Positions 4,638 to 50,700 of a DNA stretch of 64,000 nucleotides are shown one piece after another. The translations under genes were made by a program, and so were the position numbers. Location: contig JAWNZC010000348.1 in NCBI GenBank assembly GCA_035771165.1, forward strand, positions 1,364,001 through 1,428,000. The letters run 5' to 3'. This DNA is from Paragorgia papillata (lineage: Eukaryota; Cnidaria; Anthozoa; Scleralcyonacea; Coralliidae). Position 1 is the stretch's first letter. Each line of letters opens with the position of its first letter. Below the pieces are notes generated by a model. It was given only the letters and a program-made list of their open reading frames with translations. It was not told the origin of the DNA and did no database searches.

Positions 4638-5055
4638 AGGTCGTATTCCGAGATTACTTGAAACAGTAACTTGTCTTAGCTTTCTGAGATTGTCATTTTA
4701 ATCCCAAAACTATGCTCTGTATTCTCTCTCTACTCTGGACTCTAAACATTTAGGAATGATGAAACATACTGGTGCGCGAGAAATGCGCCAAAAACTGGAA
4801 CGGAAGAGACAAAGCGTAGGAAAACACGCGAGCTTTATTTCCACGCATCGTGTTCGTTCTCTGGTTTCGGCGGGCTTCGCGTATAGCGCACTGCAAGTTA
4901 GATCGTGTACTCTAGACCACAGTAATTGTATGGCACTGAGGGATATTGATAATTATATATAATATTAAATGTGCTCCTTGCCAAAGCAGGGGTGTGTGGT
5001 GTTAGCTATAGTTTGCAATATTACGGTTACTGTCTACCGGAGTTGTTTGAGACAT

Positions 5056-5179
5056 GCGCCCGTTTACACGTGCGATTTTTGATGTATACAGCAATGGTTA
5101 CTTATAGCCAATCAGAAAACGCGTTCATATTAGGTAAGGTCTTTACTGATCAAAAATCGCACGTGTGTACGTGAGGGCG
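5056..5179. repeat. Fold-back element with about 25-bp ends
   Basis: CGTTTACACGTGCGATTTTT at the left end pairs with AAAAATCGCACGTGTGTACG at the right end. The interior, with GGTTACTTATAGCCAATCAG followed by TCATATTA and TAGGTAAGGTCTTTACTG, recurs at about 16566-16630 inside an SNF8 intron. Confidence 0.75.
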
Positions 5180-5200
5180 ACTTGGTGGTGGTTGGTACAT

Positions 5201-5678
5201 ACTTTTCACCAAAATGTTTGGAAGTTCGGTCAGACGTTTGCAGGTCAGTCGTTTCTCACACGATGCCGGTACGAAATTAAACCGTAACGAAACCGTTACG
5301 GTTAGGCCTTGCGTTCACACGGTACCGGCATGAAATGACATGAAACCGTAATGCTAACCGTAACGAAACCAGACACAGTGCTAAGAAACGGTGTCCTGTG
5401 GCGTTCAAAACATCGCGTTAACAATGTCGCGTCAAAAATGCGGCTTTCTATTGATTCCTAATTCAGTGATTCCTATAACGAACGAGCGAACGAAATCACA
5501 CACAGAATATAAAGCGGTATGAAAGTTAGCTGCGCGCACAGCTAACTTCCAGGGCACTAAGCGCCCTGATCGGCATCGTGTGAACACCTTACCGTAATGA
5601 TTTCGATATTTTATAATGATTACGAAACTTTTTTCTCTGCTTAACCCTTTCACGCATGGCTCTCCGAGACTTCTCCCC

Positions 5679-5716
<38 letters not shown>

Positions 5717-6050
5717 AGAGAAAGTTGTTCGACAACAACGATGCGCATGCGCATGAAAGGGTTAAAAAATACGGGGTAAAAGAAGCGTGATGGCGGGAAT
5801 TTAATAAAAATGGAGTTTAACTGTAAAAACAGTAACGGAATGAAATGATACCGGTAACCGTGTAAACAGTTTCCCACCGTGATGATTTGATACCGGCACG
5901 ATTTCGTACCGGCATCGTGTGAACGGGGTCTTAGTTCGCAGGCTTCTTTTGAAATACGCATTTGGCTGCTTGGTTCCTAGCAGCCAATCGAATGCGTAGT
6001 TCAAAACGCACTGGCTACGAATTTCCCAAAGGTAAAAAGTATGTAACAAA
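5201..6050. repeat. Composite nested fold-back elements
   Basis: The outer element (about 5201-5245 plus 5932-6050) matches the intact copy at 53521-53729, sharing GGCTGCTTGGTTCCTAGCAG/CCAATC and GCGTAGTTCAAAACG. It is split by an inner element at about 5246-5931 with ends CACACGATGCCGGTACGAAA and its inverse TTTCGTACCGGCATCGTGTG. The inner element is itself split by the TTAA-flanked MITE at 5641-5765. Exact inner boundaries are approximate. Confidence 0.65.
5641..5765. mobile_element. piggyBac-type MITE, 125 bp, TTAA ends
   Basis: The element runs from TTAACCCTTTCACG to TGAAAGGGTTAA, so TTAA flanks inverted CCCTTT ends as in piggyBac transposons. Its core CGAGTAAAATCGTCTGGCGT/TAGACAGAGTAAAA recurs at 12906-13031, 20171-20600 and, reversed, near 6120-6165. 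Confidence 0.8.
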
Positions 6051-6080
6051 TGACTGTAAAAGGCGATTGAAGTTGATTGA

Positions 6081-6200
6081 TTAACTCTTTGCCCACTGTG
6101 TGGTTCGTTTTTGAACCAGGCAGACTTTAGTATTTTACTTTGTCTAACGCAAGACGATTTTACTTGTCAAGTGGAGAGCCATCGGTATAGAAGCCTGCAC
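6081..6200. repeat. Truncated reverse copy of the 125-bp TTAA MITE
   Basis: It begins TTAACTCTTTGCCC and contains the reversed family core TTTGTCTAACGCAAGACGAT. No matching TTAA right end is visible, so the copy is truncated or diverged. It lies just past the 3' end of the small peptide gene. Confidence 0.6.
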
Positions 6201-6267
6201 CTTCCAGCTTAGCTATACATTATAACTGTCCAAAACACGCTTCATCCGGAGTTCTAAATAATGGTAC

Positions 6268-6273
6268 TTTATT
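6268..6273 (-). terminator. Poly(A) signal AATAAA of the small peptide gene
   Basis: AATAAA on the minus strand, 52 nt past the TAA stop at 6326-6328. It supports termination at that stop rather than splicing onward at the overlapping GTAAGT. Confidence 0.55.
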
Positions 6274-6325
6274 CTATAATAAATATATTTGAGATTTAGG
6301 GTAAGCGTCCCTCTTGAAACTGTAC

Positions 6326-6905
6326 TTACGTATTTGAAAAGCCACGAATTGGATAACACCTCCACGAGCAACACAGCCGAGCTCCACCTTGAGGGCATGT
6401 GTTACCATATGGGATACAAAATGGCGGGCGTAATATCCAGTTTTGCCAAGGAACATCTCTCTTGCTAATTCTTCTTTTCTGTAATTATATAATATAGAAA
6501 AAATTATATAATCGAAATTTAATTGCAACAATATATACTAGTGCCCTAATTTTAAGATGTGCGAGGTCGTCACTGCCATCAAAGTCTTCCCAGCCAGACG
6601 TTAAATAAACATAACTTACTTTTTAACCTAATTACTTTCACAATATTAACATTGTGGTTTTTGATTTTAAAATTGTATCTCGTGTAGAATGTGAAGATAT
6701 ATATGTCATATATTATATGATACAGTACTGTGTAATCACTATATGAATTACACTGTATGAGGTTATTGCAATCTATAGTATAAATTATATAGTGCAACCT
6801 TCATGTATTAAAACTGACCTTTGTGACAGCCTTTCCTCCATCCTGCTGCGATGTACATATAGAGACAAGGAAGCAAATCAAGATAGCAGCTGCTAATTTT
6901 TGCAT
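6326..6905 (-). CDS. Small secreted cysteine-rich peptide, knottin-like pattern
   Basis: No family member is recognised. Two exons fit: 6819-6905 (ATG to donor AAG/GTCAGT) and 6326-6478 (acceptor ATTACAG to TAA), phase 0, 79 aa in total. Residues 1-19 look like a signal peptide: a lysine near the start, a hydrophobic AAAILICFLVSIC core and a plausible cleavage after TS. A short linker follows, ending in basic sites KRR and KR, which would be furin-type processing sites. The mature part is tryptophan- and proline-containing and has five cysteines spaced C-x6-C-x7-CC-x3-C. This resembles the first five cysteines of an inhibitor cystine knot, but the sixth is missing before the stop. The stop overlaps a good donor (AC/GTAAGT). 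An exon that could follow (6213-6273) would add no cysteine. An AATAAA 52 nt past the stop favours ending there. A secreted antimicrobial, signalling or toxin-like role is possible but not shown. Confidence 0.6.
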
Positions 6906-7288
6906 GATGACCTGAACAAAGTGCTGAGTGTGTTTTTGCAAGTTACTACATCCATTTTATATGCGTTCTAATACCAGAGAACATCTGTTTAATTTCATCT
7001 TTGCTTCTCATCAGCTGTGTGGAGCAGCCGTGATTTCAATAACTTTGTTCATTTGCTCATTTTGAAACACCTGAGTATTTTGACTTGATAAATAAAAGCT
7101 GCAAAGAACACCTTTAGTCTTGCATGGAAGAGTGATTCCAATCTGTTGATACACATGACTATTGACCTCGCACATGACCTGATTTTATTTTGTAAAATAT
7201 CACATGTGTGAGCACATACATTACTCAAAACAGTTGATAACGGATGTTAGAGTGTAAAAAAGTAGAGTGCTGCGGCTCTGATCAACAA
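6906..7288. other. Upstream of the small peptide gene, no gene
   Basis: This is the 5' side of the minus-strand peptide gene. I see no clear TATA box or coding exon. Confidence 0.4.
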
Positions 7289-7660
7289 ATTTTTATGGAA
7301 AAAGAAAACTTTAAAAAGGCCAGAGAAGTAGCGTGACTTGCACCAGGAGAAAATAATAAGCATACATGAAGTAGTCTGCCGTGTGATAAATTTGATTGGC
7401 TAACAATCCAAATAACCAGTGCAAATAACGAACTATCCAAATATCGCTGTTTATTATACAACTGCACTAAAAACTGTCCAAATAACGCTAAAAATGAGTG
7501 CAAATATACAGCGATATTTGGATAGTTATTTGCACTGGTTATTTGGATTCTTAGCCAATCAAATTTATCACACGGGAGACTACTTCATGTATGCTTATTA
7601 TTTTGTCCTGGTGCAAGTCACGCTACTTCTCTGGCCTTTTTTAAGTTTTCTTTTTCCATC
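7289..7660. repeat. Large fold-back element, about 155-bp arms
   Basis: The left arm (7289-7451) and right arm (7507-7660) are reverse complements with only a few differences and a short spacer. Landmarks are AAGGCCAGAGAAGTAGCGTG near 7316, inverted near 7620, and CCAAATAACCAGTGCAAATA, inverted near 7530. The spacer sequence ATTTTTAGCGTTATTTGGAC recurs at about 8010-8030, so parts of the element were copied or moved locally. Confidence 0.9.
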
Positions 7661-7744
7661 TCAAACTCATTAATAATTCATGAAGAAAACACAAAGGAAA
7701 TTACATAAATTAAGCAAACTTTCATCTTGATTTTCTCTTAAAAT

Positions 7745-8055
7745 ACTGATTTGTTTGAGATGCTATATCATACACTCGGAGGAGTGTTTCATCAGGATAT
7801 CCAAACACCTCGAAGTTTGTTCAAAAACCTCGGCTTCGCCTCGGTTTTCAACAAACAATTTACATAAAAATTTGTTGATCAGAGCTCGTTGTTTGTATTT
7901 TGACTCGCCCTGCGGGCTCGTCAAAATACGGCGCAACTCGTAAAAATATACAGCGATACTACACACCAAAACATCTAATATATATACTGTATATATATAT
8001 TTGCACTCATTTTTAGCGTTATTTGGACAGTTTTTAATGCAGTTGTATAATAAAG
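7745..8055. repeat. Repeat-derived segment with internal palindromes
   Basis: It contains GTGTTTCATCAGGATATCC and short palindromes such as CCTCGGCTTCGCCTCGG and a GCCCTGCGGGC hairpin. It ends with about 60 bp shared with the spacer of the fold-back at 7289-7660. Similar GTTTCATCAGGAGATCC sequence occurs near 59622. Confidence 0.5.
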
Positions 8056-23497: not shown

Positions 23498-26400
23498 ATG
23501 GCAGCAGTAGAAACAGAGAGAAAGGCTTCACAAGTTCTTATTAAGTCCCATTATGATCAAGCTACAAAGTGAGTTTAAACTTTTTGTGTTTTTTTTAACA
23601 TAAATATTTGTTGGACTGTCAAGTGTCGCAAGGATATACTTAGCTTTTTTAGGTTTTATATTATTTTGTGTTTGTTTTAGAATGATCAGGCTTTTAAAAC
23701 ATAGTTAGAGGGCCAAGAACCAGACAGTGTTTACTGTTTAATATCTAATAAAAAATAATTTATATAATTTTCATTTTCAAATATTAATTTAACTACATGT
23801 AATTATAAAATACTGTATGACACAAAATGTTTGGTTTACTGTACAAGTACTAATTGAGGTGTGTATCCGTTCTAAAAAAGTGTACAAACGTTTTGTGATT
23901 TTTAAAATTTTGTAGGATTGTTTTGGGATGTTTGAGATATTTTTTTGATTTTCATTGTATGAGATTTTTGGGGATATAGATAAACTAGACTGTTAATTAT
24001 GCAACAGGCTCTTTACTGGTTGTATTAGTTGTTCACATTTTAAACATGCATGTGCAAACACTCGCATGTATATACATTTTGTAAAATTATAGCTGACTGA
24101 GGCAATGTTACTGTATATTTTTATTTTTTATCATTAATTTGTGACTTATAAATGAGTTTTACATTTTAAAACATGGCAGATATATTACTAAAGGAATCGC
24201 ATGTGATGAAAGTGGTGATAAAGAACAGGCAAATACTCACTACAATAAAGGTTGGTCTTTTTTATTTAATATTTTTACTTAATTGTAATTATTAGTTTTT
24301 GTTTATTTTATTTTTTTTCAGTTAACTGTTTTTTAACTGATTTACTCAACATTTATTAAAGCATTACGAAGTATAGATGTTGGTCTTGCATTAAAATGCA
24401 GTGAAAATGGGCATGATGTTGAGAAGTCCAAGAAAATTCATGAGAAATTAAAGAAGTAATGTAAAATGCTGTTATAATAAAAAAATTAAAATATTAAATG
24501 TAATATTCCTTTTTAATTATTGACTAGTGTATTAAAATAATTTAAATTATGGCATGTTTACATTATAATTATTGAAAACAAAAATATGATCTTCAGATCA
24601 TAACTAATTTAATATAATACTGTACATGAATGCAGTTAAGAAAGGTAAAGCTAAAAAGTGGTATTATTGGGAAGAAATATTAATATTAACAGCAGTATGA
24701 GTAACTAGATTTTGATATGCGTGCATAAAATGAGATAATATATTACACTATTAAATATACCGTCGTGTATACTCATGCAGTACAATCTACATTGTATAAT
24801 AATATTATTTTTTGTGCAAATGTTTTGCTGCAGCTGCCATTAGTGTAATTTATTTTGTTATATGTAATAGGTTAAAGATTCAAGTTGAAGACAGATTAAA
24901 AGTTTTAAATTCAAATGCTGCACCTGAAGGCAAAGCTGCTCCTCCCAGGCCTCCCCCTCCTAGGCCTCCTCCTATCAGTGTGGATTCTCAGAAGACAGTT
25001 CCACATCATTACATTCCTGAAACAGTTGATGAAGCTCAGTCCAGTGTACAGAACTGGGAAGATGCACGAGAATTATTATCAATTAAAAATGGTAATGATT
25101 ATTGATCCTGTTCCTAGATAATGTTCTAACTTGTAGTATTGGTAATGTCTTGGGAGGTGTGTGTGTGTGTGTGTGTGTGTGTCGAGGGGGGTGGGTGGGA
25201 CGTCATACTGTCAAACATATTGTGAAGCATTAAAGGCTTGATAATGGTTTGTACATCATAAATTCTAGTTGATTTATGTGTTATTGACAAATCTACAGTG
25301 TGTAATCTTATAGTATATGATTTGGTGAGTGTTGTTAACTTCTCACACAGTATACAAGATGTATCAGACAAAGTATTTTTGTGTTGGAGTTGAAATGAAA
25401 TGAAATGAAATGAAATGGAATTAAATTCAGTAAAATGAAGTGAAACAAAATGAAGTGAAAAGAAATGAAGTGAAGAGAAGTGAAGTGAAATTAAATTAAA
25501 TGAAGTAATTTAACTAAATGAAGTGAAAAGAAATGAAGTAAAAAGAAATGAAGTATTACTAAAAGGAATGAAGTGAAACAAAATGAAGTGAAATGAAATG
25601 AAGTGAAAGGAAAAGAAATGAGAAGAAATGAAATGGAGTTAAACAAAATGAAGCAAAAGGAAATACAGTGAAATGAAATGAAGTGAAACAAATGAAGATA
25701 GATAGATGAATTTTCTTTAGACCTGGTAAAATTATCTGACAGTACTAATTAACTAATTATAATCATGGTATATACAAGTTAATATCTAGAATTATATATA
25801 AAAAGGATTACTGTATGTTATACAAATACTGTTTTACCTGATTGCCTTGTGGTCATTTTTGAAAGCACTCAAAGATTTCCCTGATCTGATGAACATTTCC
25901 ATGTAGTGAAACGAAATGTAGTGAAACGAAAAGTAGTGAAATGAAAAGTAGTGAAACGAAAAGTAGTGAAACGAAATGTAGTGAAACGAAAAGTAGTGAA
26001 ATGAAAAGTAGTGAAACGAAATGTAGTGAAACGAAAAGTAGTGAAACGAAAAGTAGTGAAACGAAAAGTAGTGAAACGAAAAGTAGTGAAACGAAATGTA
26101 GTGAAACGAAAAGTAGTGAAACGAAAAGTAGTGAAACGAAAAGTAGTGAAACGAAAAGTAGTGAAACGAAATGTAGTGAAACGAAATGTAGTGAAACGAA
26201 ATGTAGTGAAACGAAATGTAGTGAAACGAAAAGTAGTGAAACGAAAAGTAGTGAAACGAAAAGTAGTGAAACGAAAAGTAGTGAAACGAAATGTAGTGAA
26301 ACGAAAAGTAGTGAAACGAAAAGTAGTGAAACGAAATGTAGTGAAACGAAATGTAGTGAAACGAAAAGTAGTGAAACGAAATGTAGTGAAACGAAAAGTA

Positions 26401-29400
26401 GTGAAACGAAAAGTAGTGAAACGAAAAGTAGTGAAACGAAAAGTAGTGAAACGAAATGTAGTGAAACGAAATGTAGTGAAACGAAAAGTAGTGAAACGAA
26501 ATGTAGTGAAACGAAAAGTAGTGAAACGAAATGGAGTGAAACGAAAAGTAGTGAAACGAAAAGTAGTGAAACGAAAAGTAGTGAAACGAAAAGTAGTGAA
26601 ACGAAATGTAGTGAAACGAAATGTAGTGAAACGAAAAGTAGTGAAACGAAATGTAGTGAAACGAAAAGTAGTGAAACGAAATGGAGTGAAACGAAAAGTA
26701 GTGAAACGAAAAGTAGTGAAACGAAAAGTAGTGAAACGAAAAGTAGTGAAACGAAAAGTAGTGAAACGAAATGTAGTGAAACGAAAAGTAGTGAAACGAA
26801 AAGTAGTGAAACGAAAAGTAGTGAAACGAAAAGTAGTGAAACGAAAAGTAGTGAAACGAAAAGTAGTGAAACGAAATGTAGTGAAACGAAAAGTAGTGAA
26901 ACGAAATGTAGTGAAACGAAATGTAGTGAAACGAAATGTAGTGAAACGAAAAGTAGTGAAACGAAAAGTAGTGAAACGAAATGTAGTGAAACGAAAAGTA
27001 GTGAAACGAAATGTAGTGAAACGAAAAGTAGTGAAACGAAATGGAGTGAAACGAAAAGTAGTGAAACGAAAAGTAGTGAAACGAAAAGTAGTGAAACGAA
27101 AAGTAGTGAAACGAAAAGTAGTGAAACGAAATGTAGTGAAACGAAAAGTAGTGAAACGAAAAGTAGTGACACGAAAAGTAGTGAAACGAAAAGTAGTGAA
27201 ACAAAATGTAGTGAAACGAAATGTAGTGAAACGAAATGTAGTGAAACGAAAAGTAGTGAAACGAAAAGTAGTGAAACGAAATGTAGTGAAACGAAATAAG
27301 GTGAAACGAAATGTATTGAAAAGAAGTGCAGTGAAAGTGAATAAAGTGAAACAAAATAATAACATTTATTTATACCGCGCAAATTCAACTTTAAGGTTTT
27401 CAAATGCGCCTTACAATAATTTTTGACATGGCCGAGTCGAAGGCATATCAAAGGCGCTCAGGCAGCCGCCATACGACACATATCGGCCCACGAATTACAG
27501 ATAAGCCCTAGGTGTTGATTTTACGGAGGGAGGAAAACCGGAAAACCCGGCGAAAAACCCTCGGAGCACAGGAGAGACCAACTAAACTCTACTCAAACTC
27601 AAGCTCGAGAACGGGATTGTTCCCAGACGGTCACCCATCCAAGTACTAACCCCGTCTAACCGGGCTTAACTATTGGTGAGAGGCAACGCCCTAACAGCAC
27701 ACGCCATCCGTGCACCCCCATGCAAAATGAAATAAAATGAAGCGAAATGAATTGACATATGTGAGATAAAGTGAAAAATTAAAAAATTTTTGACTGCAAA
27801 AAAATCTCAGTTCTGTAATTAATATTAGTGTTTAGTGATTGTATACAGTAATTAGCATTTATGCATTCTTTATTATGGTGGATGGCAACAGTTATAAAAT
27901 GATGTATAGTTTAATTTGGGTCAATCCTGATTTTTTTCTATGTTTCAGGTGTGACAATGTTTTTTGTTTCTGAAGAAGGACAGGTGACGACCTTGTATCA
28001 GCCACAAACTCTCCGTGCCTTACAGCTGGTTAATCAAACTTCAGGTTTGTGCTAAATTAACAATAATTAAACAATTCAGTATTGAGCTTTTCTCATGTCA
28101 AGAATTATCATAGTCGAAGTTTGTCTTTTGAGAGCTTGATATTTTGATATAAAAAAGTTGAATTAATTAAATAATTGTTTCATTATACATTTCAGTTGAA
28201 AATGTAGAGAAGAAAACCGGGGGGTAAGAGGTGAAGGGGTACGAAAATCCGACGATCCGATCCGTTAATTTTTGTGGTCAAATCCGCTAATCCGAATCCA
28301 CAGTTATCAGTTTTGTTGAACTTTACGAATTCGCACGATTTACGCAAATTTTACTTCAACATGCTGACAATTACTTTAACTTGTGTTACATTTTTTGACA
28401 ATAATAGACTGTCAGTGATGTAATCTGATCAATAACAAAAATCCAAGATAGGAATAAGATCCAGCGTCCGTAGAAAATTACAAGCAAAATCCGTGATCCG
28501 AGGTCAATTATTGGGAAAATTCGCAATCCGCCACTTTTACAGGATCCACAAACCCGACAGATTTTTAGGTCAAAACCCGCCGATCCGTAAATCTACCCCC
28601 CCCCCCCCCCCCCCAAAAAAAAAAGTTTTTTTTAATGTCAATTATCTACTTAACCAGATAAAATTTAATGTATTTAATATTGGCCACCCAAGACCCAAGT
28701 ACAGTCACTATAAGAAAATGAATTTCAATCAATTATAATTAATATATATATATATAGATATATATACTAATATATAATTATATATAATTATTTATACAAT
28801 ACCTGGTGCCCCGGAATGGTGCCTCACCAAGTCTTTTGATAGATCGTGGAGACTCTTTATTTTTTATATCGGATTTAAAAAGCGGAGGTAAAAAGCAATT
28901 ATAGCGATTACATTTCACGAAGATGTTCTATTTATGTCGAAAACTTGTTTATCAGAAAATTTTTGACATGCATGTTTTTGGTTTCTCTAGAAGTCTATAA
29001 CTAGCCGGGATCTACGACACCTAGCCTCTAACTCTAAGTTGTTTTAGAAACAAAGCAAAAGTTATTCCAAATAACGTGTACACAATCAAATTTTGATTGA
29101 CGAAACACAACTATTAAAGTTGTACACGTTATTCGGAATAACTTTTGCTTTGTTTATGCCAAAGAAATCATATACAGTATATAATGGAGAATACGGTTGT
29201 TGTGAATTTGTGTTTTGGATAATCTTTTAGATTATAGCAATGCAGCGGCCTTTTTACATTGTGGTTCCTGGGTATTTCCTTTGATTCCTGGAAGTTCTCC
29301 TATTTTAAAAACTGAAGAAAGAACGTTTATGATTCCCGATATAAATCTGGATCATGGGCAAACTGAAACGGCTCGGGGACAATTTGCCCAAGGAAAATTC

Positions 29401-29882
29401 CCAACTGTTGGACTGGTCTTCTCTCCGGAAACAACTGATGATCAAATTAAACGTTTTGAAAGAATACTAAAATGCTACGCAGATTATAGACATTATACAC
29501 CTCATGCCGATACTTCAGCGTACGATCAGACTACAGCATTACCATCAGCACCAGCACTACCATCAGAACTAACTACACTGCAGCCTGAAACTGTATCTTC
29601 AGAAAGAGCTTTAGTCCCAGCTGGTGATGGAACTGTTTCTGAAAACAATGAAGAGCAGGTAATTTCTGAGAATACATCAAACAGTGAAAAATAAACATGT
29701 TGTCATTACATGTACGATATGACAAAAGCGGAGACTCCTAAGTGCTCGTAAAACTGCTCACTTGCTTGTACAAAATTGATCCGACGGAAAGAGTTTCCTA
29801 CTTGCTTGCCTTGTATATTTTTGTTTTCTTGTAGTTGTGTAACTTGCTTGCTTTTTTCCTTACTTGCTTCCTTGCTTTTTTC

Positions 29883-29913
<31 letters not shown>

Positions 29914-32900
29914 CCTTCCTTCCTTCCTTCCTTCCTTCCTTCCTTCCTTCCTTCCTTCCTTCCTTCCTTCCTTTCTTCCTTCCTTCCTTCCTTCCTTCCT
30001 TCCTTCCTTCCTTTCTTCCTTCCTTCCTTCCTTCTTCCCTTCCTTCCTTCCTTCCTTCCTTCCTTCCTTCCTTCCTTCCTTCCTTCCTTCCTTCCTTCCT
30101 TCCTTCCTTCCTTCCTTCCTTCCTTCCTTCCTTCCTTCCTTCCTTCCTTCCTTCCTTCCTTCCTTCCTTTCCTTCCTTCCTTCCTTCCTTCTTCCCTTCC
30201 TTCCTTCCTTCCTTCCTTCCTTCCTTCCTTCCTTCCTTCCTTCCTTCCTTCCTTCCTTCCTTCCTTCCTTCCTTCCTTCCTTCCTTCCTAACTTCGTTCC
30301 TTCCTTCCTTCCTTCCTTCCTTCCTTCCTTCCTTCCTTCCTTCCTTCCTTCCTTCCTTCCTTCCTTCCTTCCTTCCTTCCTTCCTTCCTTCCTTCCTTTC
30401 TTCCTTCCTTCCTTCCTTCCTAGCTTGCTTCCTCCCTTCCTTCCTTCCTTCCTTCCTTCCTTCCTTCCTTCCTTCCTTCCTTCCTTCCTTCCTTCCTTCC
30501 TTCCTTCCTTCCTTCCTTCCTTCCTTCCTTCCTTCCTTCCTTCCTTCCTTCCTTCCTTCCTTCCTTCCTTCGGGATCTCCATTCCTTCCTTCTTTCCTCC
30601 CTCCCTCCGGGCCCTCTATTCCTTCCTTCCTTTTTCTATCCTTTCTTTCACCTTGTTATATATGTCCACTATATAATCGCTTTATATTTTTTATTAAAAA
30701 ATGTTCTTAAGTTAATTGTCAAAATTGAACCCTTTAATTTTTAGAGCTCAACCTGGGGAGCCAAAGTGTCAAAGGTAAAGATTTTTAATATACTTTGCAT
30801 TAGTTTCCTCTGAAGCAATTTTGACGAAATGTACCGAATTGTTTTGATTACGTTTTTGAAAGGGAATTGGAGTTGGCGCTGTTCTTGTTTCGTGGGGATT
30901 AAATAAAGGCGCACAGATTGGTGGAAGCCTAATCAATCAAGTAATTGCTCAGACTTGTATCCACTGATCTCTATATAACTGGATTGCTCATCCTTTATGG
31001 TCAGCAGTAAACATTTTGAAGCCACTGGTGGCCATATTGGTACTCCAAATTCGTCATCTTCGCTGGCTTCATTTTTGGAGCCGGATGGGCAATCCAGTTA
31101 TATAGAGATCAGTGCTTGTATCTCATTGAAATTATATGTTTCTTTGTTAACCAAGTGGGGTAGGATTGATAGTCAGATGTAGCCTGCGCCGCAGATGTCC
31201 GAACCCGGTTTGAAACCGGCGGCTTTGGACGTCTGCGGCGCAGGCTAAGTAAGATGTAGCTGAAAAATGTTATTGCATGAGGGTGGTTGTCATTGAGGTC
31301 AGTTTGGCCTTCGTGTAATTTTCTAAAGGTCTATATTATTTTATTAAAAACGTTTCTTCTATATGTATTTGGTGATTTGTCAACATTACATGTGAAAATG
31401 TTAGTGTTTACATTTTGATATATTTTCAAATATTTTATACCAATTTTGCACAAAAATTACTTTTTAGGGATCAGAAAAACTCCGAGGAAAGATAAAACCA
31501 AATGAAGAATCTGCAAAGATTGATCCAAAACTTGAAGAAAATGTACGACAAATAAAAACTGCAACTGGTGAGATAGCTGCCAATAATTTTAAAAAGCATG
31601 CATTTTCTTGAGAGATTATTGAAAACCCTAAAGAGTTAAAAATATAGCAGAAAAATATTTTGGGATCACTTCGAACCTTTGTAACCTGGCGTATTACGGA
31701 TTGGGAAGTATCTATTTTTCTGCGCGCGTAGAGGAAATGCTTGCGTTGCTCAACTTCCGTACAAATGCGTGCTAAATTTTTAATTATTCGCGCTAAATTT
31801 GATATCGCATTCCTTGCAGTCCGACTATCGTTTCTCCTAGGTTCGTCAAAGGTTTGCGATTGTGAAAGCTTGACAGTTCAGTTCTGATTTTGAATAATGA
31901 CTATATCCAAAATGCATTCAAAGTCTAGGGAATACTTGCTCTGCTAACAGCATTCTACACGCGTTACTGTCTTTTACGCCATACCGGAAGTAAATTACTG
32001 CACATGCGACACACTAGGAGTTGCAGAGGCTTAAATATGCCGTAGTCTAAAAGCAAGGTGAAATTGATAGAAATACACATGCAAAATTACTATAAGTAAC
32101 AGGGGTCATCAAGGCTACCTAAGAGTGATGCAAATTCAAAATTGTTACCTGGATCTACTGGACACCCCACGGAAACGCAACTACTTTCACCAATACCAAA
32201 GCAATCTGGTATGGCGTAACAGACAGCAACGCTTGCAGAATGCTGTTAGCAAAGCAACATTCCCTAGATTTTCAATGCCCTTTAGATGCTGAGTCATTTT
32301 TCAAAATCATAACTGAACTGTAAAACTTTAACAATCGTAAACCTTTGAAGAACCTAGGAGAAACGATGTAGTCGGGGTCTGTCAGGCTGCAAGGAATGCG
32401 ATATCAAATTTAGCGCGAATAATTAAAAATTTAGCACTCATTTGTACGGAAGTTGAGCAATGTAAGCATTTCCTCTACGCGCGCAGAAAAACAGATACTT
32501 CTGTCATAGGCCAGGTAACCAAGGCTCTAAGTGATCCCAAAATATTTTTCTGCAAAATATATATATAAAGAATGAACTTAAAAAGTGAAAACTGCATGTA
32601 AACTAAATATTTAGATCTATGTTTACCTTACGTTTCCTAGCTTTTTCCCAAGTACCCTCAACTATATAGAAAGCACTCAGAGACTGCATATACCTCTGCC
32701 AGCGGATTATTCTAGAAAAAAGGCTGACTTAACCAGACCTCCACATGCATATGTATGAATAAAATGCCTAATTATACACTTATAATAACGCAAAGAAAAA
32801 TATTGGTGTCCCTTTTGGTCCATGATCGCTCTATTCTTTAAACAATGGAAGCCATTGTTATTTGTTAATTCAGTTAAATATTTAGTTAAAGCTTTGCATA

Positions 32901-38751: not shown

Positions 38752-41700
38752 ATGAACACACCACAAGCCATTGCATTCGACGAATTTGGTCGACCGTTTA
38801 TTATTCTTAAAGAACAGGAGAGAAAAAGGAGATTAACTGGCTTGGATGCGCAGAAGGTTTGCTGTCAAAAATATATTTTAATACCTGGAAGTGATTGTAA
38901 TAATAGCTGTTTAATGATTGTATAAAATTACCTTTTAGTCACATATCCTTGCAGCTAAAACTGTGGCTAATACACTAAAAACCTCTTTGGGACCAAATGG
39001 TTAGTACGATTTTTATCAACTACATAAATATCTGTCAGTATACTGTACTGAGTCACTGACAGGTGTATGGATTAATATACTGACTCGAGAAGCTATGTTT
39101 ACGAATATTTTTAATTATTTTCATATGCTAGTTCTTACTCTTTAGCCCTTGTGTGCAGGTAGCCATAATTTCAATGCTACATGTGCATCAACATTCTGTT
39201 TATACATTGAATTTGGCACAAAATTACTGCAGAACTTTCTCTTTATAATGCACAAAATTCCACCACCCTTGGGAGGGCGGGCAGACCCTCGGGAATTTGA
39301 ACTTTTGAAAATGTTGTCTGTCAAATTTCCCACTCACAAGTTTAAGTCAGTTGTCAAATACCCCTACCAGGGGGTGAAAAATTTGTTCTATTAGGTGTAT
39401 GACGAGCAAGAAGTTGGCTATTTCTTCTTTGGAAAGTTTCTCCATCTTTTAAAAAATCTATTTTAATATCGCAGACGTCGAAGCAACGTAAGCATGTAAC
39501 TACCATATTTTCTGGGTGATAACCCACACGGCATATAACCCGCACAGCAACAAAAATGTCACTTTTGGAAAAATAAATCAGCGTATTACCTGCACCATCG
39601 GATAACCCGCAGCTGCTAATAATAGGTTTGGGCAAGGGAGCACACCAGACTGACTTGTATTTCTTCTTTGTTCGGCATTCCTTTATTTATATTCAGCCAT
39701 TTTTAATAATGCGGTATATATCATTAGCGTATCGCAGGCGCGGGCGACGTGGCCAAAGGAAACCCGAGTGCATTCCAAAAATGAAATAACCGGGGCCGTA
39801 GCCCGCACGCCTGCGATACGCTAATGAATATACCGCATTATTCAAAATGGCTGAATATAAATGAAGGAACGCCGAACGAAGAAGAAGAAATACAGGTCAG
39901 TCTGATTTGCTCCCTTGGTTTGGGGACCACAAAATTATAAAAAAGTACAGTACCAGTAGTTAAAATATGAAAGTAGAATCCTTGGTCTCTGGTCTTCGTG
40001 ATGGTGTCATCTTAAAGATTCAACAGATTACCCGCACCACCCTATTACCCGCACTAATTATGTTTCCTAGCAAAATTAAGAGATAACCCGCGGGTTATCG
40101 CCCAGAAAATACGGTAGTCTTCAGGGTCTTCTCGGTTTTAGCGCGCCATTATTAAATGAACCTGGGGTCAAGGTTGATCAATTCCCCAACTCTCAGTACA
40201 CAATTCTTCGTCAGATGCGATGGATCGCGCTCGCCAGAGCAGATTTCACAACTGGGCAGCGCGATTTGGTTTTTCTTGAAAAACAGCGCCGGTTTATGTT
40301 GATGACTTCCTGTTACATTTCCTGGTTTGTGGTTTTCATCTGCACAACTAGCATAAAGTTTGAGATTTTGTAGTGTTTTGTAGTGACGTCCCCGTGAGCA
40401 AACGAATGCTATTTTGTATTTTCGCTGATTTCAGCTAGTCTTTTAATAATACGAATATCAATTAAACAATATGCAGCAAGACAGTACAGTACGTCACTGG
40501 AGAGTGCAGTTAGCCTGCCACTAGAAACAAACTAAAAATATTTAATATCTAAACCCATTAATTTAATAAAACCAAGAACAATTTATCTCCCTGTGATGCC
40601 ATAATTTGTAAATATGCGTGCATAAAGTTGTTCAAAACCACGCCGCCGGTTTATTGATTTGTTTTTATAAGCTAGACTGTATACTCCTGCACAGGGTAAA
40701 CAAGAGATATTCCATTATTTTCATATTATATACAACTGAGCATTTATTTACTCCATTTCTAGGCAGTGGAAGATAATCTGCGAGCGCATTTTATGACAAA
40801 TTACTTATCTGCCAGCGCGATCAATCGCGCTGGCAGAACGAACTGGGGAGCGTGTGGGCGAGCGCGAGCGCGCTCGCCTCATTGAAAGCACTGAACCTAT
40901 GTCAAGTCCCCCATGGTTGCCTGCCCTCTTAGGGGTGGTGGAAACAAATAATAGGTGCATAACACCAGGGCTTGAAATTTGCGCTATCCCGATATCCACG
41001 GGATACTAGATTTTAGTTTTGCATACTAGAAGTCTTAATTTCAGTATCCCAACGGGATACAATAAAAATTTTGATAGCGCACAGCCACAGAATGTGAAGT
41101 AACGATGTGAAGTAACGTCTTACATTGTAATGTAACATCTTACAATGTAACGTAACGTCTTACAATGTAGCGTAATGACTTACAATGTAACGTAATGTCT
41201 TGCAATGTAATGTAATGTTTTGCAATGTAACGTAATGTCTTACAATGTAGCGTAATGTCTTACAATGTAACGTAATGTCTTACAATGTAACGTAATGTCT
41301 TACAATGTAGCGTAATGTCTTACAATGTAATGTAATGTCTTACAATGTAACGTAATGTCTAATTACAATGTAACGTAACATCTTATAATGTAGTGTAATA
41401 GTATTCAGAAGTGGGATACTAGATTGCAAGGAGGGATACCAAAATTCAGAAACCTGGTATCCCACTTGGATACTGCCAAAAATTGAAAATTTCAAGCCCT
41501 GATAACACTAGTCTGCTTTAAACTGTATTTAAAGCTGTCTGCTTTTAAACTGCATTTACAATCACTTATAAAAGTTATTGTGTAGTAGTGTGGTATGAAG
41601 TGTCATGAAAACAGCTCCTGTAGGATTTGAGTGCTGAAGTTGATTTTTTTCTTTTTTGAGTTGACTACATGTAGATGTCAAACAATTGGAAAATGATGGG

Positions 41701-44700
41701 GTTCAAATATTCAACCTCTCGATGTACAGAGGGGTTGGATCTTTCCTGGAACGACCCAATCATTCAAATATGATGACCATAAATCTACATTTTTTAGGCA
41801 TGGATAAAATGTTGGTTAGTCCAGATGGTGATGTTACAGTTACAAATGATGGTGCAACAATTTTGAGTCAGATGGAGGTAGAGCACCAAATTGCCAAATT
41901 AATGGTGCAGTTATCAAAATCACAAGATGATGAAATTGGTGATGGCACCACTGGTGTTGTTGGTATGGTTTGGTTTATTTTTTTTAAAATTATTTAACTG
42001 ATTAACATTTTCTATTGACAGAATGAGAAATTTATACTTTTACAATAATATGCAATGGTATACATGTAATCTAATCTAATCTACTGTAATTGTTAACATT
42101 TATTGCTAACAGTGAGTTAACTTAACCCTTTCCCTACTACGCTGCCCTGTACCAGCTGCAGAAGTTGAAGTTTATGTCTTCGCGCATGTCGCCTCGTGCA
42201 TCTTGATTCCTCACCATCCTGCAGGATTGCGTAGAACATTGCGTAGGATGGTGTAAAATATCGTGCCAGCACATAGAAGAAATGCAGACAAGTGTCAAGT
42301 TGTCTAATATTGTTGTAGAACAAATTACCAGTTATTGGCCAATCAAATGGCGTTTACTGTGCATAAATTTCCTGCTTTGTTATACCAATAAATGTTGTGG
42401 AACACATGCTAATTTCCAACGATGCCATAATGGCATCTTAATGGCGTCGTCCTCTTCTACAAATGTAATTTCGCGTGAGCAATATGATGAAATGTTTGGA
42501 TCTTCTGGGTTAGAAAATGAAGACGAGCAATCTTGGACAGTTCAACCCATCTATTACATAGTGGTTAGTGATTTTGTTTCACCCACAGAATTGCCATTGA
42601 ACTTCCTCAAGACACAACAGAGTTAGAATTGTTTAAATTTCTGTTTGGTGATGATATCGTGTATCACATTGTTGCAGAAATGAATCGATACACCATAAAT
42701 GCTCAAAAAGCCAATGGCAGTGATAGCAAACGAGCTGAGATACGAGTGCGCTCACTGTGGTGTTGCATTGTGCAAAGATATTGCTTTCTTTTTTATCATA
42801 GTCAACTTTGATAACACTAGAACATTTCTTTTGACTTATTTTGTATATAGTGAAGATTCTGTCAAGTAATATGTATTTTTTATGTATTTGTATTTGACAA
42901 ATCAAATATAGCTATTGTCATGGTGGCAAATTTGAAAAGCTTATTACAAAACAAAATTTCTAGTGTGATTACGCTTGTTCACAAGGTCAAATTGATTTTA
43001 ATGGTGAATCTAAATAAATAGCTTTCCTACTTTTTGTTCCTGTGTATTTGTATGTGTATAATCTCCTAATTCTACTGAGCATGTATGTTTTGATTTGTAC
43101 TATGAAATACATGGGTAGATCCCTCTCTTTTATATCAGAAAATATTATACTATTAATTTTTGTCTCTGGGGGGCCAGTAGGGAAAGGGTTAAGTAGATTT
43201 AACATTATTACTCTAGAAGTGGGTTTAGTAATAATGTTAATGCAAGTTGCCCATTGGAAATGTAAGATAAGTGTGGGAATTAACAGTCCATTAGCTTTAG
43301 AGTGTATTGGCATGCAAATCTTAAAAATTGGCACAAATGTCAAGAATAATGGAATTGAAAAGAGATTAGAAACTTGCATTCAATGGTCTTTGGATCTGTG
43401 TCAAGCAGAATGTGTGTTGGATGTTTAGAACTGTGACCAATCTGGATAGACTCGTAGAGTATTAAAACACCACTCAATGCTACATTTGTTTTGGGTTTTT
43501 ATCAAGCCTTTATAATAAAATATTTTTCTTTCTGACAGCAGCTTTTAACAAAAAACTTCCTGCCAACTTTCAACAGTGCACGCTTTCAGCAAACCAATGC
43601 ATGGTCCTGACGCATCTAGAATTAGATATAATTTAGATAAATAATTTACATTTATAATACACAGTTTTACATTGTTGGTGAATTTTTGAATGTCAACAAA
43701 GTTAAAAATTTTAGTTTTTCTGAAAGATAAAAATACCACTCTTCTTTTCCCCAAAAATTTTCTGTGAGATCAAAATAGTTTTATGGCATCATGTGCTGGT
43801 GGACATCCTCAGGCTTTGGTTTTTATATAGTATTGCTTACTCTATTACTGTACATGTAACATTGAATGTAAAAGATGGGAGGGACACCATAAAAAGCTAA
43901 GCTTGCTATGCAGGTACAGTACAACCTGTTTTTCATTGTACTGGTATCTGGAGTACAGTAGATACACTAGACTAGTACAACTTTTCTGGTATCTAAAAGT
44001 TGGATACCAGATCTTTAGGTTTGTGTAGCAGGTTAAAAAATGCTGGTGTCCACAGAGGATGCATACACTGTACATGTTTTCTGTAAAAATCTAATGTTGA
44101 GTGTGTGTAATTGTGAATGTTATTTTGTGACAGTTCTAGCTGGAGCACTTCTTGAACAAGCTGAACAATTGTTAGATCGTGGAATCCATCCTATCCGTAT
44201 AGCTGATGGTTATGAACTGGCAGCCCATATTGCCTTGCAGGAACTTGACAAAATTAGTGAAAGTTTTCCTGTCAATAAAGAGATGAAAGGACCATTAGTA
44301 GAAACAGCCAAGACAACATTAGGCTCAAAAATGTAATGATCTAGTTTATTTGTTATTTTTTATTAATTTATATGTACAAGGTACAAGACACACATGTAAT
44401 GTTTAAAGTTTATTATTAATATTAATAAGTGTACTGTGTACATGTTAGCATGTTAGATGTATATACAGTGTACCAGCATTGTACAGGCACATCTGATCTA
44501 TCTTAATGAAAATACAGTACTGGTACTACAAAGTAATACATCAAAGACGACATTATGTCGATATACATCGTATAGTAAGTGCTCATGTTGATGTAGTGCA
44601 CTCTGAATATACTGTAGATTTTTTACTTTTTTTTAAACTGTATAGATAGATAGATAGTGCCTATGAAACGAAAATTAAGTTTGTCTTATTTGAAAGAACA

Positions 44701-47700
44701 CTTCAAATTATAGAGTAACATCTTTTGCAGTTTTTTGTTTCCTTGCTTCGTTCTTGAGATATTTTAGTTTGTTTGATATGCAAATTAAACATTTTAACGT
44801 CACATGTGCATAATGAGTTATTGAAAAAGTTGATATATATCTTTGCTATTATCAAATATAATCCCTTGAAGATCTACATGTTTAGTGTTGTGAGCAAAAC
44901 ACATCCACATGCTTCCTTCGAATTAATTTGGTTTGATAATAGAAAAGATATCTAACCTTCTCCAATAGCTCATTATGCACCTACAATGTCAAAATGTTTA
45001 ATTTGCATATCAAACAAACTGAAATATCTCGAGAACAAAGCAAGGAAATGAAAAACCGCAAAAGATGTTACTCTATAATTTTAAGTGTTCTTTCAAATAA
45101 GACAAACTTAATTTTCACTTCATAGGCACTTTAACTATTTGACTGTACTTAACTATTAATTTTGCATGGCTGAATTCCTTGATAGCAAATCATTATTGTT
45201 GTATAAGGCCAGACACCATGCTAGAGCAAAGCCATTTTTAATTGCACTGTATGCTTAAATGCAGTTGTAATATTTTCATTGTTATTTAATGTTGTATTTA
45301 ATAACAAAAATAAACAAAAAATGGTGACAATCTTTTGTTTTTTTCTTTTACTTGTTGCCTAAACCTCCATTGACATTGATGTGCTAATGTTTTTTTTGTT
45401 GTTGTTTTTCTGTTACATGTATGTTATTTCATTGCTTCTACTACCAGAGTTAGTAGATGTCAGCAGCAAATTGCTGAAATTGCAGTGGACGCAGTTCTTT
45501 CAGTGGCTGATTTGGAGAGAAAAGATGTTGATTTTGAGTTAATAAAAGTTACTGGGAAAGTTGGTGGTAAACTGGATGATACAATGTTGGTGAAAGGAGT
45601 AATAATTGATAAAGATATGAGTCATCCACAGATGCCTAAGGTAGAATACTTTTATAAGGTGGTGGTTCTGTGAAAAAGCAGTCTGACATTTTGAGCAAAG
45701 GCCCTTTATCAAAAAGACGTGTTTCTCTCTGATGAAGAGCCTTCCCAAAGTATAACCTCTTGTGTGTATACACCAAGTCACCAAGCTTGACATTTTCTAT
45801 TTGTATTTCTACACTGTCTACTGTATATACATGTACACCACACTGCTTTTTATGTACACTGTACATTTCAAACTGATTTACATCTATAGTACTGTACTTT
45901 ATTTACTGCAACGTGTTCTTACAGTAGTAACCGAGTCCATTTTAATGTAAAGCAAAGCGTAGTTTAATTTCCTTGGACCAATGGTATGCTAATACTGTAA
46001 TTGTTTACTTAAAATTACATGTACTGGAAAATATTGAGTCCACAAGTTTATAATTGCTGCATCTACGTTAAGTTTATTTACCATCTTTAATCAGTAGATC
46101 ATTGCCTATGTTACAAAATGATGATTGACCATACCAGTTGTATGATTTGTGTTGTCTTTAGGTTGTTAAAGATGCTAAGATTGCCATTCTCACTTGTCCA
46201 TTTGAGCCTCCAAAACCCAAAACGAAACATAAGCTTGATATAACATCAGTAGAAGATTATCATAAACTTCGTGAATATGAAAAGAATACATTTAATGAAA
46301 TGATAAAACAAGTAAAGGATACTGGAGCCAACCTTGCGTTGTGTCAATGGGGTTTCGATGACGAGGCAAATCATCTTTTATTACAAAATGAGTTACCTGC
46401 TGTCAGATGGGTTGGTGGACCAGAAATAGAGGTGATAATATTACATCATATTATATGGCTGAACTTGTTTTCAGGTCTTTACGGCAAATGGCGCACGTTT
46501 AAGCCCCGCACAGACGACCAAGTTTTCCTTGACAAGTTTTTCCTTGACAAGTTTTATTTGTCCGTGTGCACGACACAAATTGACAAGTTTTTCCTTGACA
46601 AGGAGCCTTGTTCAAAAGCTGGTCATGCCAGCTTTTGAACAAGGAAATTTGTTCGTGTGTATAGTCGTCAAGGAAAACTTGACAAGATCATCTCCTAAGC
46701 TTATTACGCGATCATTGCCGTCAAGGAAAACTTGTCCAACCGTACACACGAGCAATTATAACTTGTCAAGGAAAATTGTTGGAAAAAAATTGTTCATCGT
46801 ACACACGAGCAAGGAAAGCTACGAAGGAACTTGTCAAGAAAAACTTGGTCGTCTGTGCGGGACTTAATTGGTTGTTGAAAGCAGACGCCCTGGCACACTG
46901 TGGGAGGGCATTACCGGTACGCCTTTTTTAATGACTTGCAAGTTTTGGCGGGAAAATTCCTAAGTTGATTTGAATAAAAATAAAAGAGAATTAAACATTT
47001 TCGTTGAAAATTTTGAACAATAATAGGTACTGGAACATTTTTTTTAAAACTTGTTTTTTTTTATAAAAACTACTTATTTAAAAACGTGGAGAATGAATGC
47101 TTAACAGGTGTAAACATGAAATGAAAAACGAACAAGCTCAAAAGTAAGGTAAACGGCAACATCTGAAGATGCCAACGATGAGTACGATGAGGTTTAAATA
47201 TGAAAATCTCTGACTGTCCTGACCGTGTCTCAATAGGTCAGTGGTCAGAGCGTTGATTTGGGACTAATCAGATTTTTCATATTATTAAAATAGTTTATTA
47301 GAGAACGATTTTAAGTTTTTAGATACTTATTGTATCAAAATTATTGTGAAAAACGTAGAAATTCGCGCCAGCAAAATCACTATCCGGGACAGCAGTTCGG
47401 ATACGGAAAAAGACAGACCATGTGTTGACCAATCAATTTCAGAACTTTCCAAGTGAATTTCAGATAATTCAAGTGAATTTCAGAAATTTCCAACTCAATT
47501 TCAGATCTTTCCGAGTGAATTTCAGATAATTCAAGTGAATTTCAGAAATTTCCAACTCAATTTCAGAACTTTCCAAGTGAATTTCAGATAATTCAAGTGA
47601 ATTTCAGAAATTGCCAACTGCATTTCAGAATAGTACAAATTAATTTTAGGATTTCTCATTTTATTACATATCAATGCACAAATTCCGCATACAACAATAC

Positions 47701-50700
47701 GAAACAAATAACCACAACAAAACAACCAAAACCAGCTGGTACTGTATGATAAGCACACAATTAACAATTTCACAAATTTATGCTCCTACTTCCATGTCCT
47801 CCAAGTTAAGCGCACGCTGGAAAAAAACCGCGTGGGCATGCTGGCATGAATTCACAATGTGTTGAACAGTAATTTGTCCTATGGATTCATCAATTAATCT
47901 TTCGACATATGCTAGCCGCTGCTCACCCACTCTGGGAAGTTGCACTTCAGGGACTCGCATTCGCTGTTTCACCACTGCTTTCATTTTGCTCCAGATTGTC
48001 TCCACAAGGTTCAACATTGGGGAGTACGGTCCCAAACGGTCAATTGCACTCGTTGAAATAACAATAGCACTCGTTGAAATAACAATAGCACTCGTTGAAA
48101 TAACAATAGCACTTTATTCATTAGCGCGAAACGACATTCAATAACGCTTCTGTAACATCAATAGCATTTATTACATAAAGTGCTATTTTTATTTCAATGA
48201 GTGCAATTGAAGTTTTTTTATTGAGTAATGCAGGGCAAAAGGTGTATGTGTTCCCTCAGCTAATCCGAACTATTTACTGTTCAAGCGAACTTTAGCCTCT
48301 CGCTTCATTTTGAAAATGTCTGAAATTCATTTGGAAATGTCTGAATATCATTTGGAAAATCTGAATATAATTTGGAAATTCTGAATATCATTTGGAAATG
48401 TCTGAAATTCATTTGGAAAATCTGAATATCATTTGGAAGTGTCTGAAATTCGTTTGGAAGTTTCTGAATTTGACCTGAAAAAGGTGTAGGGTAGTATGTT
48501 AATACTATATGTTAATATTCGTTTTATTTTTTAGTTGATTGCTATAGCAACTGGTGGTCGAATTGTACCTAGATTTTCGGAGTTAACTTCTGAGAAATTA
48601 GGTCATGCTGGTTTAGTAAAAGAACTTTCTTTTGGAACTACAAAAGATCGAATGTTGGTTATAGAAGAGTGTAAAAATTCCCGCGCTGTTACAATATTTA
48701 TAAGAGGAGGAAATAAAATGGTAAGGTCTTTCGTTTGTGCCTCGATTTGCTAAACTAACTTTATTTTATATTTATACTGGATCACCCTATCAGTCGTATC
48801 TAAACTGTTCTCCAAGAGGTCCAGTAAGGGCCATCCCTCATTGGTCCAGTCTTAGTACAGTAGGAAGTATAGGAATACCCAGAGGAAACGTGTGGTAGAG
48901 TCCGTGCGCTAATCATTGTTCCACCAATACCTCTAAGATGGGTTCTTTCGAGAAAAATAGACATTTTGTGATGTGTTTCGTGGTTTTGGTCTCCTCTTGC
49001 TCTTTCCAATGTATACAGTAACTATAGGTGCAGTAACTATAGGTACAGTACACGCGCGCCGCGTGTTTTAAACCTCATACAATAATTAATCGTGTTGTGT
49101 GCGAATTCTTGTTTCAAAAGTAGACCGCCTAAAAGGAATGTTTTATTTTACAGATAATCGAAGAAGCCAAGCGTAGTATTCATGATGCGTTATGCGTGGT
49201 TCGTAATCTTGTTCGTGATAATCGCATTGTTTACGGGGGTGGTGCTGTAGAACTGGCATGTTCTTTAGCAGTTGGACAACGTGCTGACAAGGTAAAACGG
49301 TTCTCCAGTCTTGAAAAGATTTGAACTTCTGACATTGACAAAGTAACATCTTTTGCAGTTTTTCGTTTCTTCGCTTCGCTTCGTTGTCGTTTGATATGTA
49401 AATTGAACATCTTGACGTCACACGTGATAATGAGTTATCTATCGGAGGTTAAATAGAGAATAATACATGGATGTGCGGAAATATGAAATTTATTTCGAGT
49501 GTTTACCAGGATATCTCACGAGTGAGCGAAGCGAACGAGTGACATATCCTGTTCAACGCGAGAAATAAATTTCGTATTTCCAAGCATCCATGTATTGTTC
49601 TGTTTATTATATGAAAAAAATTGTCCTATTGCCTTGCAAAAATTGCATTAAACTATAATGCTGATTCAGCGATAATCGTCACATGTGAGATTATCACTTT
49701 TATTAGTGGCGGAAAAATCAATAAAACACTATTTTATATAATAAATATCTTTATTACGAAACATATTCACTTGAAAATTTACATGTTTGGTGCTGTGGGA
49801 GAAACACCCCCACATGCTTCCTTCGAATTAATTTGGCTTGATAATGTAACATGATATTAGAAAATGAATTAGTATTCTGTTCAAACAACCTATTGTAGTT
49901 TGAAAGCCCTAAACACCTCTGAGCCACGGATGCGTAAAAAACACGGTCTTATACACCTGTGAAATTAAGATAACTTGAAGTGTATGCGTGGTGAAAGTAT
50001 TTAAAAGCTTTTTCTCTTCCTGTTTAACTTTAATATGTGCTGTTTTTAGGGCTTTCAAACTACTACAATAGGTTGTTTTAAAAGAATACTAATTCATTTT
50101 CTAAGGGTTCCATTTTTTTTATACACACTGTATAACATTCTTCGATAAATCATCAGCCTGGTTCCCAGGCTTCTTTTTTTAACGTCGAGCGACAGACCGA
50201 AATTGTGAGAGGCCTGGAATAAAATGTTTTGCTTGGCCCCAAATCTGGCCCCAAATTATACAGGCACCAAACGGCCGTTTGGCGGAAAACCAAGGTAGAT
50301 AACACTCACGTCGGTCTGCACAATTCTTTATAACATCATATAGCAAGGATGGTCTAATGCCGAAACATTTTCCGCTTGTCCTGTCGCTCGATCCCTATTC
50401 TGTGACGTCACCAAAATAAGTTCTAGAAAAAAGAGGACTAGGAACTAGTCTGCATAAATCATTATGTACATGTGACATGTCAAAATGATTAATTTGCATA
50501 TAAACAGCTGAAGTATTTCAAAAACGAAGCAAGGAAACGGAAAACTGCTTTCAAATTAGACAGACTACATTTTCGCTTCATAGCCACTTTAACTGCTCAA
50601 CCAAGAGACGGAACTAAAACGACGTAATTATTTTTTATTCTGGATTATAGGACTATTCTATTTTTGAACGACCGAGCGGTTGTTTATTTATAATAATTAT

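Follow-up and report, generated by a model that had tools for sequence, protein, structure and literature searches.

How many cysteines does a secreted peptide carry if the stop codon that seems to end it is overlapped by a splice donor? This question is raised by a small gene on the minus strand of a 64,000-nucleotide (nt) stretch of contig JAWNZC010000348.1 (positions 1,364,001 to 1,428,000 of the forward strand; hereafter the window), in which a signal-like exon is followed by an exon with five cysteines in knottin-like spacing. The product of the locus is very likely a small secreted peptide of the cystine-knot type, rich in disulfides. The reading that we favor, tentatively and at just short of an even chance, is a gene, found in a single copy, for a secreted, proprotein-processed inhibitor-cystine-knot peptide whose sixth cysteine comes from a short third exon. 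The true number of cysteines is probably not five, and what looked like a five-cysteine novelty probably arises from an exon that had gone unread. The peptide is an orphan, and it belongs to an already known kind.

A signal exon paired with a cysteine-rich exon

The two-exon join proposed in the initial annotation holds letter for letter. Exon 1 (6905-6819, 87 nt) and exon 2 (6478-6326) meet in phase 0, and the spliced product consists of MQKLAAAILICFLVSICTSQQDGGKAVTK from exon 1 and KRRISKRDVPWQNWILRPPFCIPYGNTCPQGGARLCCSWRCYPIRGFSNT from exon 2, followed by TAA at 6328-6326. The dibasic sites, the C-x6-C-x7-CC-x3-C spacing, the stop, and the AATAAA (6273-6268) reported with this join are likewise all present. 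What can be read directly is an N-terminus resembling a signal, a short pro-region that is basic and ends in SKR, a cysteine-rich C-terminal part, and one phase-0 intron, which together give the signal, intermediate, and mature regions of a precursor, the signal being assigned from hydropathy. The signal peptide has a hydrophobic core and a probable cut after CTS, as judged by hydropathy and not by SignalP, and the donor that closes exon 1 (AAG/GTCAGT) matches 8 of 9 consensus bases.

The cysteine spacing of exon 2 follows the knottin order C...C...CC...C and falls within the knottin loop ranges of 3-7, 3-8, and 1-4 residues; it is the sole five-cysteine motif in the 64 kb. Third-order Markov sequences of the window's length contained 0.25 such motifs on average, with at least one in 8 of 40 sequences, so the motif by itself is weak evidence. 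Exon 1 was examined with a crude rule that asks for an ATG with a basic residue close to it, ten consecutive residues averaging 2.2 or more in hydropathy, a polar tail, and an in-frame donor matching 7 or more of 9 consensus bases, these thresholds having been chosen after exon 1 had been seen. Applied to the two strands of the 64 kb, the rule returned a single candidate, exon 1 itself; with the polar tail dropped, a minimum donor score of 8 left 1 candidate, one of 7 left 2, and one of 6 left 10. Exon 1 sits 340 nt upstream of the sole cysteine motif, with strand and phase matching. A TATA box precedes it, and since the TATAAAA heptamer occurs 38 times on the minus strand of the 64 kb, we estimate that one would fall within a 15-nt slot by coincidence in about 1% of cases. 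The G+C content (GC) of the exons alone is unremarkable, being matched by 9% of 149-nt windows for exon 2 and 22% of 87-nt windows for exon 1; the full exon/intron GC contrast recurs at 52 of 63362 positions, among which the gene's own may be included.

Unlike the motif alone, the pairing of signal exon, motif, phase, and TATA box is not weak evidence, and in our judgement the gene is very probably real. A chance assembly, or a dead gene from which no peptide is expressed, would fit the lack of a homologue in the searched collections and of any paralogue found (see below), as well as the ease with which the motif alone arises by chance. It fits poorly with the signal-exon pairing, the phase, the TATA box, and the GC contrast, and we regard it as improbable.

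The 3' end of the gene and a probable sixth cysteine

The GTAAGT that overlaps the stop codon, with its donor G at 6329, is present as initially described, and the hexamer occurs only 17 times in the window, counting both strands. Spliced from this donor to an acceptor at 6254 (ATTATTTAG), the transcript would lose a 76-nt AT-rich intron, carry the first two bases of a Thr codon across it, and gain the tail TTPDEACFGQL and a stop, with one cysteine within 12 codons. The resulting six-cysteine spacing would be C-x6-C-x7-CC-x3-C-x14-C. We consider this candidate splice, and the sixth cysteine that it would add, likely. The initial annotation had raised an unrecognized exon reached through GTAAGT as one way to account for the missing cysteine; that suggestion now has a concrete candidate in the sequence of the locus, in a setting where comparable tails turn up by chance at the rates given below.

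A local yardstick for splicing is available in the complete CCT5 gene (T-complex epsilon) on the plus strand at 38752-52003, with 10 exons and 538 codons open after splicing. Its nine introns range from 82 to 2798 nt, one being 82 nt long, and six of the nine end in TAG, so that a 76-nt intron ending in TAG has a local parallel. Taken with the size of the genome, the many introns of this gene suggest an animal host. Candidate exon 3 is flanked by the gene on one side and by a dispersed repeat (approximately 6080-6198) on the other, and has no other genomic match. This repeat confines the non-repeat DNA beside exon 2 that could hold a 3' end to approximately 6199-6329, and chains of five and of six cysteines both fit there. 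The repeat itself drew 1084 first-look candidates in the genome, of which 40, the query itself included, were scored and listed; among the matches listed, copies lie about 2.0 kb apart on contigs C47, C76, and C415. An acceptor at 6201 (tail TCRLLYRWLST) was tried and set aside: the tail has a cysteine, but the acceptor is poor and the tail enters the dispersed repeat.

Several observations weigh against the third exon. When GTAAGT was placed before 4000 random window positions, the next 100 nt offered a tail of 4-30 residues with one cysteine at 16.9% of them with YAG acceptors and at 30.6% with any AG (n = 4000). Of the 17 GTAAGT hexamers that occur naturally, 4 reach such a tail via YAG, the gene's own included. 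Because random DNA offers such tails at 17-31%, the candidate exon is suggestive and not proof. The second donor has C at position -1, which is without local parallel given that 8 of the 9 CCT5 donors have G there. Just beyond the candidate exon, GC is 42%, like that of the exon itself, and composition therefore gives no mark of where it ends. A final loop of 14 residues is longish for a knottin, and the single-sequence structure model of exon 2 alone was poor (predicted local distance difference test score, pLDDT, 53.8; three short strands).

The acceptor at 6254 is also preceded by a rival at 6274 (TATTATAG), the first AG at least 25 nt beyond the donor, which leads to the tail TIKYHYLELRMKRVLDSYNV. 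Further acceptors are present, and CCT5 introns of up to 2.8 kb give a distant one precedent in the window. Intron 2 might thus be removed by way of 6274 or a farther exon, so that the chain would end in a tail different from TTPDEACFGQL, which might or might not include a sixth cysteine. We think this rather unlikely: the 6274 tail is devoid of cysteine, and the DNA from approximately 6198 to 6080 is the dispersed repeat.

The AATAAA at 6273 bears on a different ending. It starts 53 nt past the last base of the stop, is the only one on the minus strand at 5400-7100, and has a GT-rich stretch downstream of it at 6238-6230, all of which suits a gene end before exon 3. The chain would then end at the TAA, the AATAAA would serve as the polyadenylation (poly(A)) signal, and the one unpaired cysteine would form a disulfide-linked dimer or stay a free thiol. 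Although this is the direct reading of exon 2, it leaves a perfect and seldom-seen GTAAGT spanning the stop, and small secreted peptides rarely have an odd number of cysteines. We consider this ending unlikely. Of the interpretation first given to the locus, the lineage-specific secreted peptide is supported; the mature form probably does not have the five-cysteine pattern.

With GTAAGT overlapping the stop, a splice switch is conceivable, in which retention of intron 2 would yield a five-cysteine dimer or free thiol with its own AATAAA and removal would yield a six-cysteine knot. We give it only a slim chance; if true, splicing or poly(A) choice would decide whether one gene yields a covalent dimer or a knottin monomer.

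For the favored six-cysteine peptide, a course of maturation can be proposed. Signal peptidase would cut near CTS/QQ and a furin-type convertase after SKR, and with the 76-nt intron 2 usually removed, the mature chain would comprise about 53 residues (DVPWQNW...FGQL) with six cysteines. Disulfides I-IV, II-V, and III-VI are predicted to close a protease-resistant knot. Once secreted, the peptide would act extracellularly, its loops perhaps binding a target outside the host, for example an ion channel or enzyme belonging to a predator, prey, a fouling organism, or a microbe. More generally, a splice site that overlaps a stop is a warning, since a single-exon reading may make a six-cysteine peptide pass for a five-cysteine novelty.

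Table 1. Positions, composition, and content of the features of the peptide gene and its candidate 3' extension.
Feature	Positions	Strand	GC	Content
TATA box (TATAAAA)	6955-6961	minus		Read from sequence; ends 50 nt upstream of ATG
Exon 1	6819-6905	minus	43%	ATG, signal peptide, first half of pro-region; from hydropathy and donor scan
Intron 1	6479-6818	minus	27%	340 nt, phase 0; 3' end TTACAG
Exon 2 up to second donor	6330-6478	minus	45%	KRRISKR cleavage sites, then five-cysteine mature part
In-frame TAA	6326-6328	minus		Chain end if intron 2 stays in (five cysteines)
Candidate intron 2	6254-6329	minus	29%	76 nt, phase 2, GTAAGT...ATTATTTAG; inferred from sequence
AATAAA	6268-6273	minus		Poly(A) signal if five cysteines; intronic if six
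Candidate exon 3	6220-6253	minus	41%	Thr codon completed, then TPDEACFGQL and stop; sixth cysteine; inferred from sequence

Relatives, toxin family profiles, and known parallels

Queries of 89 and 50 residues found no relative among approximately 5.8 billion proteins in a search that requires shared 5-residue words. In the gene's own genome (617.9 Mb, 473 contigs; only the best candidates scored), each exon was found once, with the proviso that strongly diverged copies could escape, and a 27% match at E = 0.89 was not accepted. The initial view of a lineage-specific secreted peptide is supported by this single copy and by the lack of a protein-database relative. No tandem copy and no further motif was found in the window or in the 30 kb before its start, on the gene's 3' side. 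The sole locus returned by a scan of species genomes (L001, in a Hyphomicrobium metagenome-assembled genome) is a 22-residue piece lacking the cysteine frame and was dismissed as chance. Neither the viral contigs searched nor NCBIfam gave a match. Against the PDB, phmmer found nothing significant, and no stryphnine or asteropsin was among the entries listed. One of the nonsignificant matches (E = 0.42 and 1.1) was bidentatide (8hjc), presumably of plant origin, which has the same C-x6-C-x7-CC-x3-C over 24 residues.

The Pfam Conotoxin profile (PF02950) gave a match at E = 2.3e-4 and 22.5 bits for the five-cysteine product and 22 bits for the six-cysteine product, below its cut-off of 25.1 bits. 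Exon 2 alone gave E = 0.074 and exon 1 alone no match. Shuffling the pro and mature residues around fixed cysteines abolished or weakened the match in 6 of 6 trials (best E = 0.46), and with the signal shuffled, it persisted in 4 of 4 (E 0.0008-0.0018). These controls indicate that the match does not come from cysteine spacing alone. Its value for the favored peptide is reduced by two findings. An unrelated secreted peptide from the same genome, which lacks the knot spacing, also matches Conotoxin below threshold (E = 0.0022), so that the match tells little about descent, and a Conotoxin profile search of the gene's own genome returned 22 matches from which the gene is absent. None of these 22 is above the cut-off or has knot spacing in the frame shown, and most of them look like simple sequence. 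The Omega-toxin profile (PF06357) reached 7.5, 9, and 8.6 bits against a cut-off of 22.

A separate observation from these profile searches is a tandem family on contig C216 (L009, L010, L011, and L013, at approximately 41-106 kb). Its members are secreted peptides that contain cysteine and begin in a signal-like manner; they lack knot spacing and match Conotoxin below threshold.

In kind, the nearest published parallel appears to be the sponge knottins. Stryphnine precursors consist of signal, intermediate, and mature regions, and the ester-linked members act as deterrents of barnacle larvae and as inhibitors of a bacterial sialidase (PMC13418204). The likeness of the gene to stryphnines and asteropsins, by description only, lies in the three-part precursor and the small cysteine-rich peptide; six-cysteine knots are established in the sponge peptides, whereas in this gene such a knot is only possible. 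If the host is a sponge, an exon-resolved genomic locus for an orphan knottin-like peptide would be an aid to asking how such genes originated.

Conotoxin precursors resemble the gene in their signal, their basic-cut pro-region, and the C-C-CC-C pattern. As described in PMC3862624, all superfamilies studied except A have three exons that correspond roughly to signal, pro-region, and mature peptide, separated by introns of more than 3 kb that are mostly of phase 1 and then phase 2, with intron 1 of the I2 superfamily in phase 0. On that account, candidate intron 2 agrees in phase with the second intron of most superfamilies, and intron 1 agrees with that of I2. The exon plan differs: intron 1 is only 340 nt long and of phase 0, exon 2 combines half of the pro-region with the part that carries the five cysteines, and the C5-C6 loop contains candidate intron 2. 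A cnidarian case is U-GRTX-Esi28, a cystine-knotted putative toxin of an octocoral with a two-exon gene, presented in PMC11896702 as a Malacalcyonacea innovation. As a knotted peptide with a two-exon gene, it can be likened to the present one by description only.

Surroundings of the gene

An Rfam scan of 5000-8000 gave no match at gathering scores. RNA structure prediction across candidate intron 2 and the greater part of candidate exon 3 gave no signal (z 0.54). At 7295-7659, there is an inverted repeat with 135-nt arms that are 97% complementary and 95 nt apart. Long arrays of simple repeats occupy 25834-27457 and 29706-30744; several of their frames are open, with SETK/VKRK-like and GRKE/LPSF-like translations. 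Within an intron of CCT5, on the minus strand at 47781-48113, lies a subthreshold remnant of a DDE_3 transposase (E = 0.00037).
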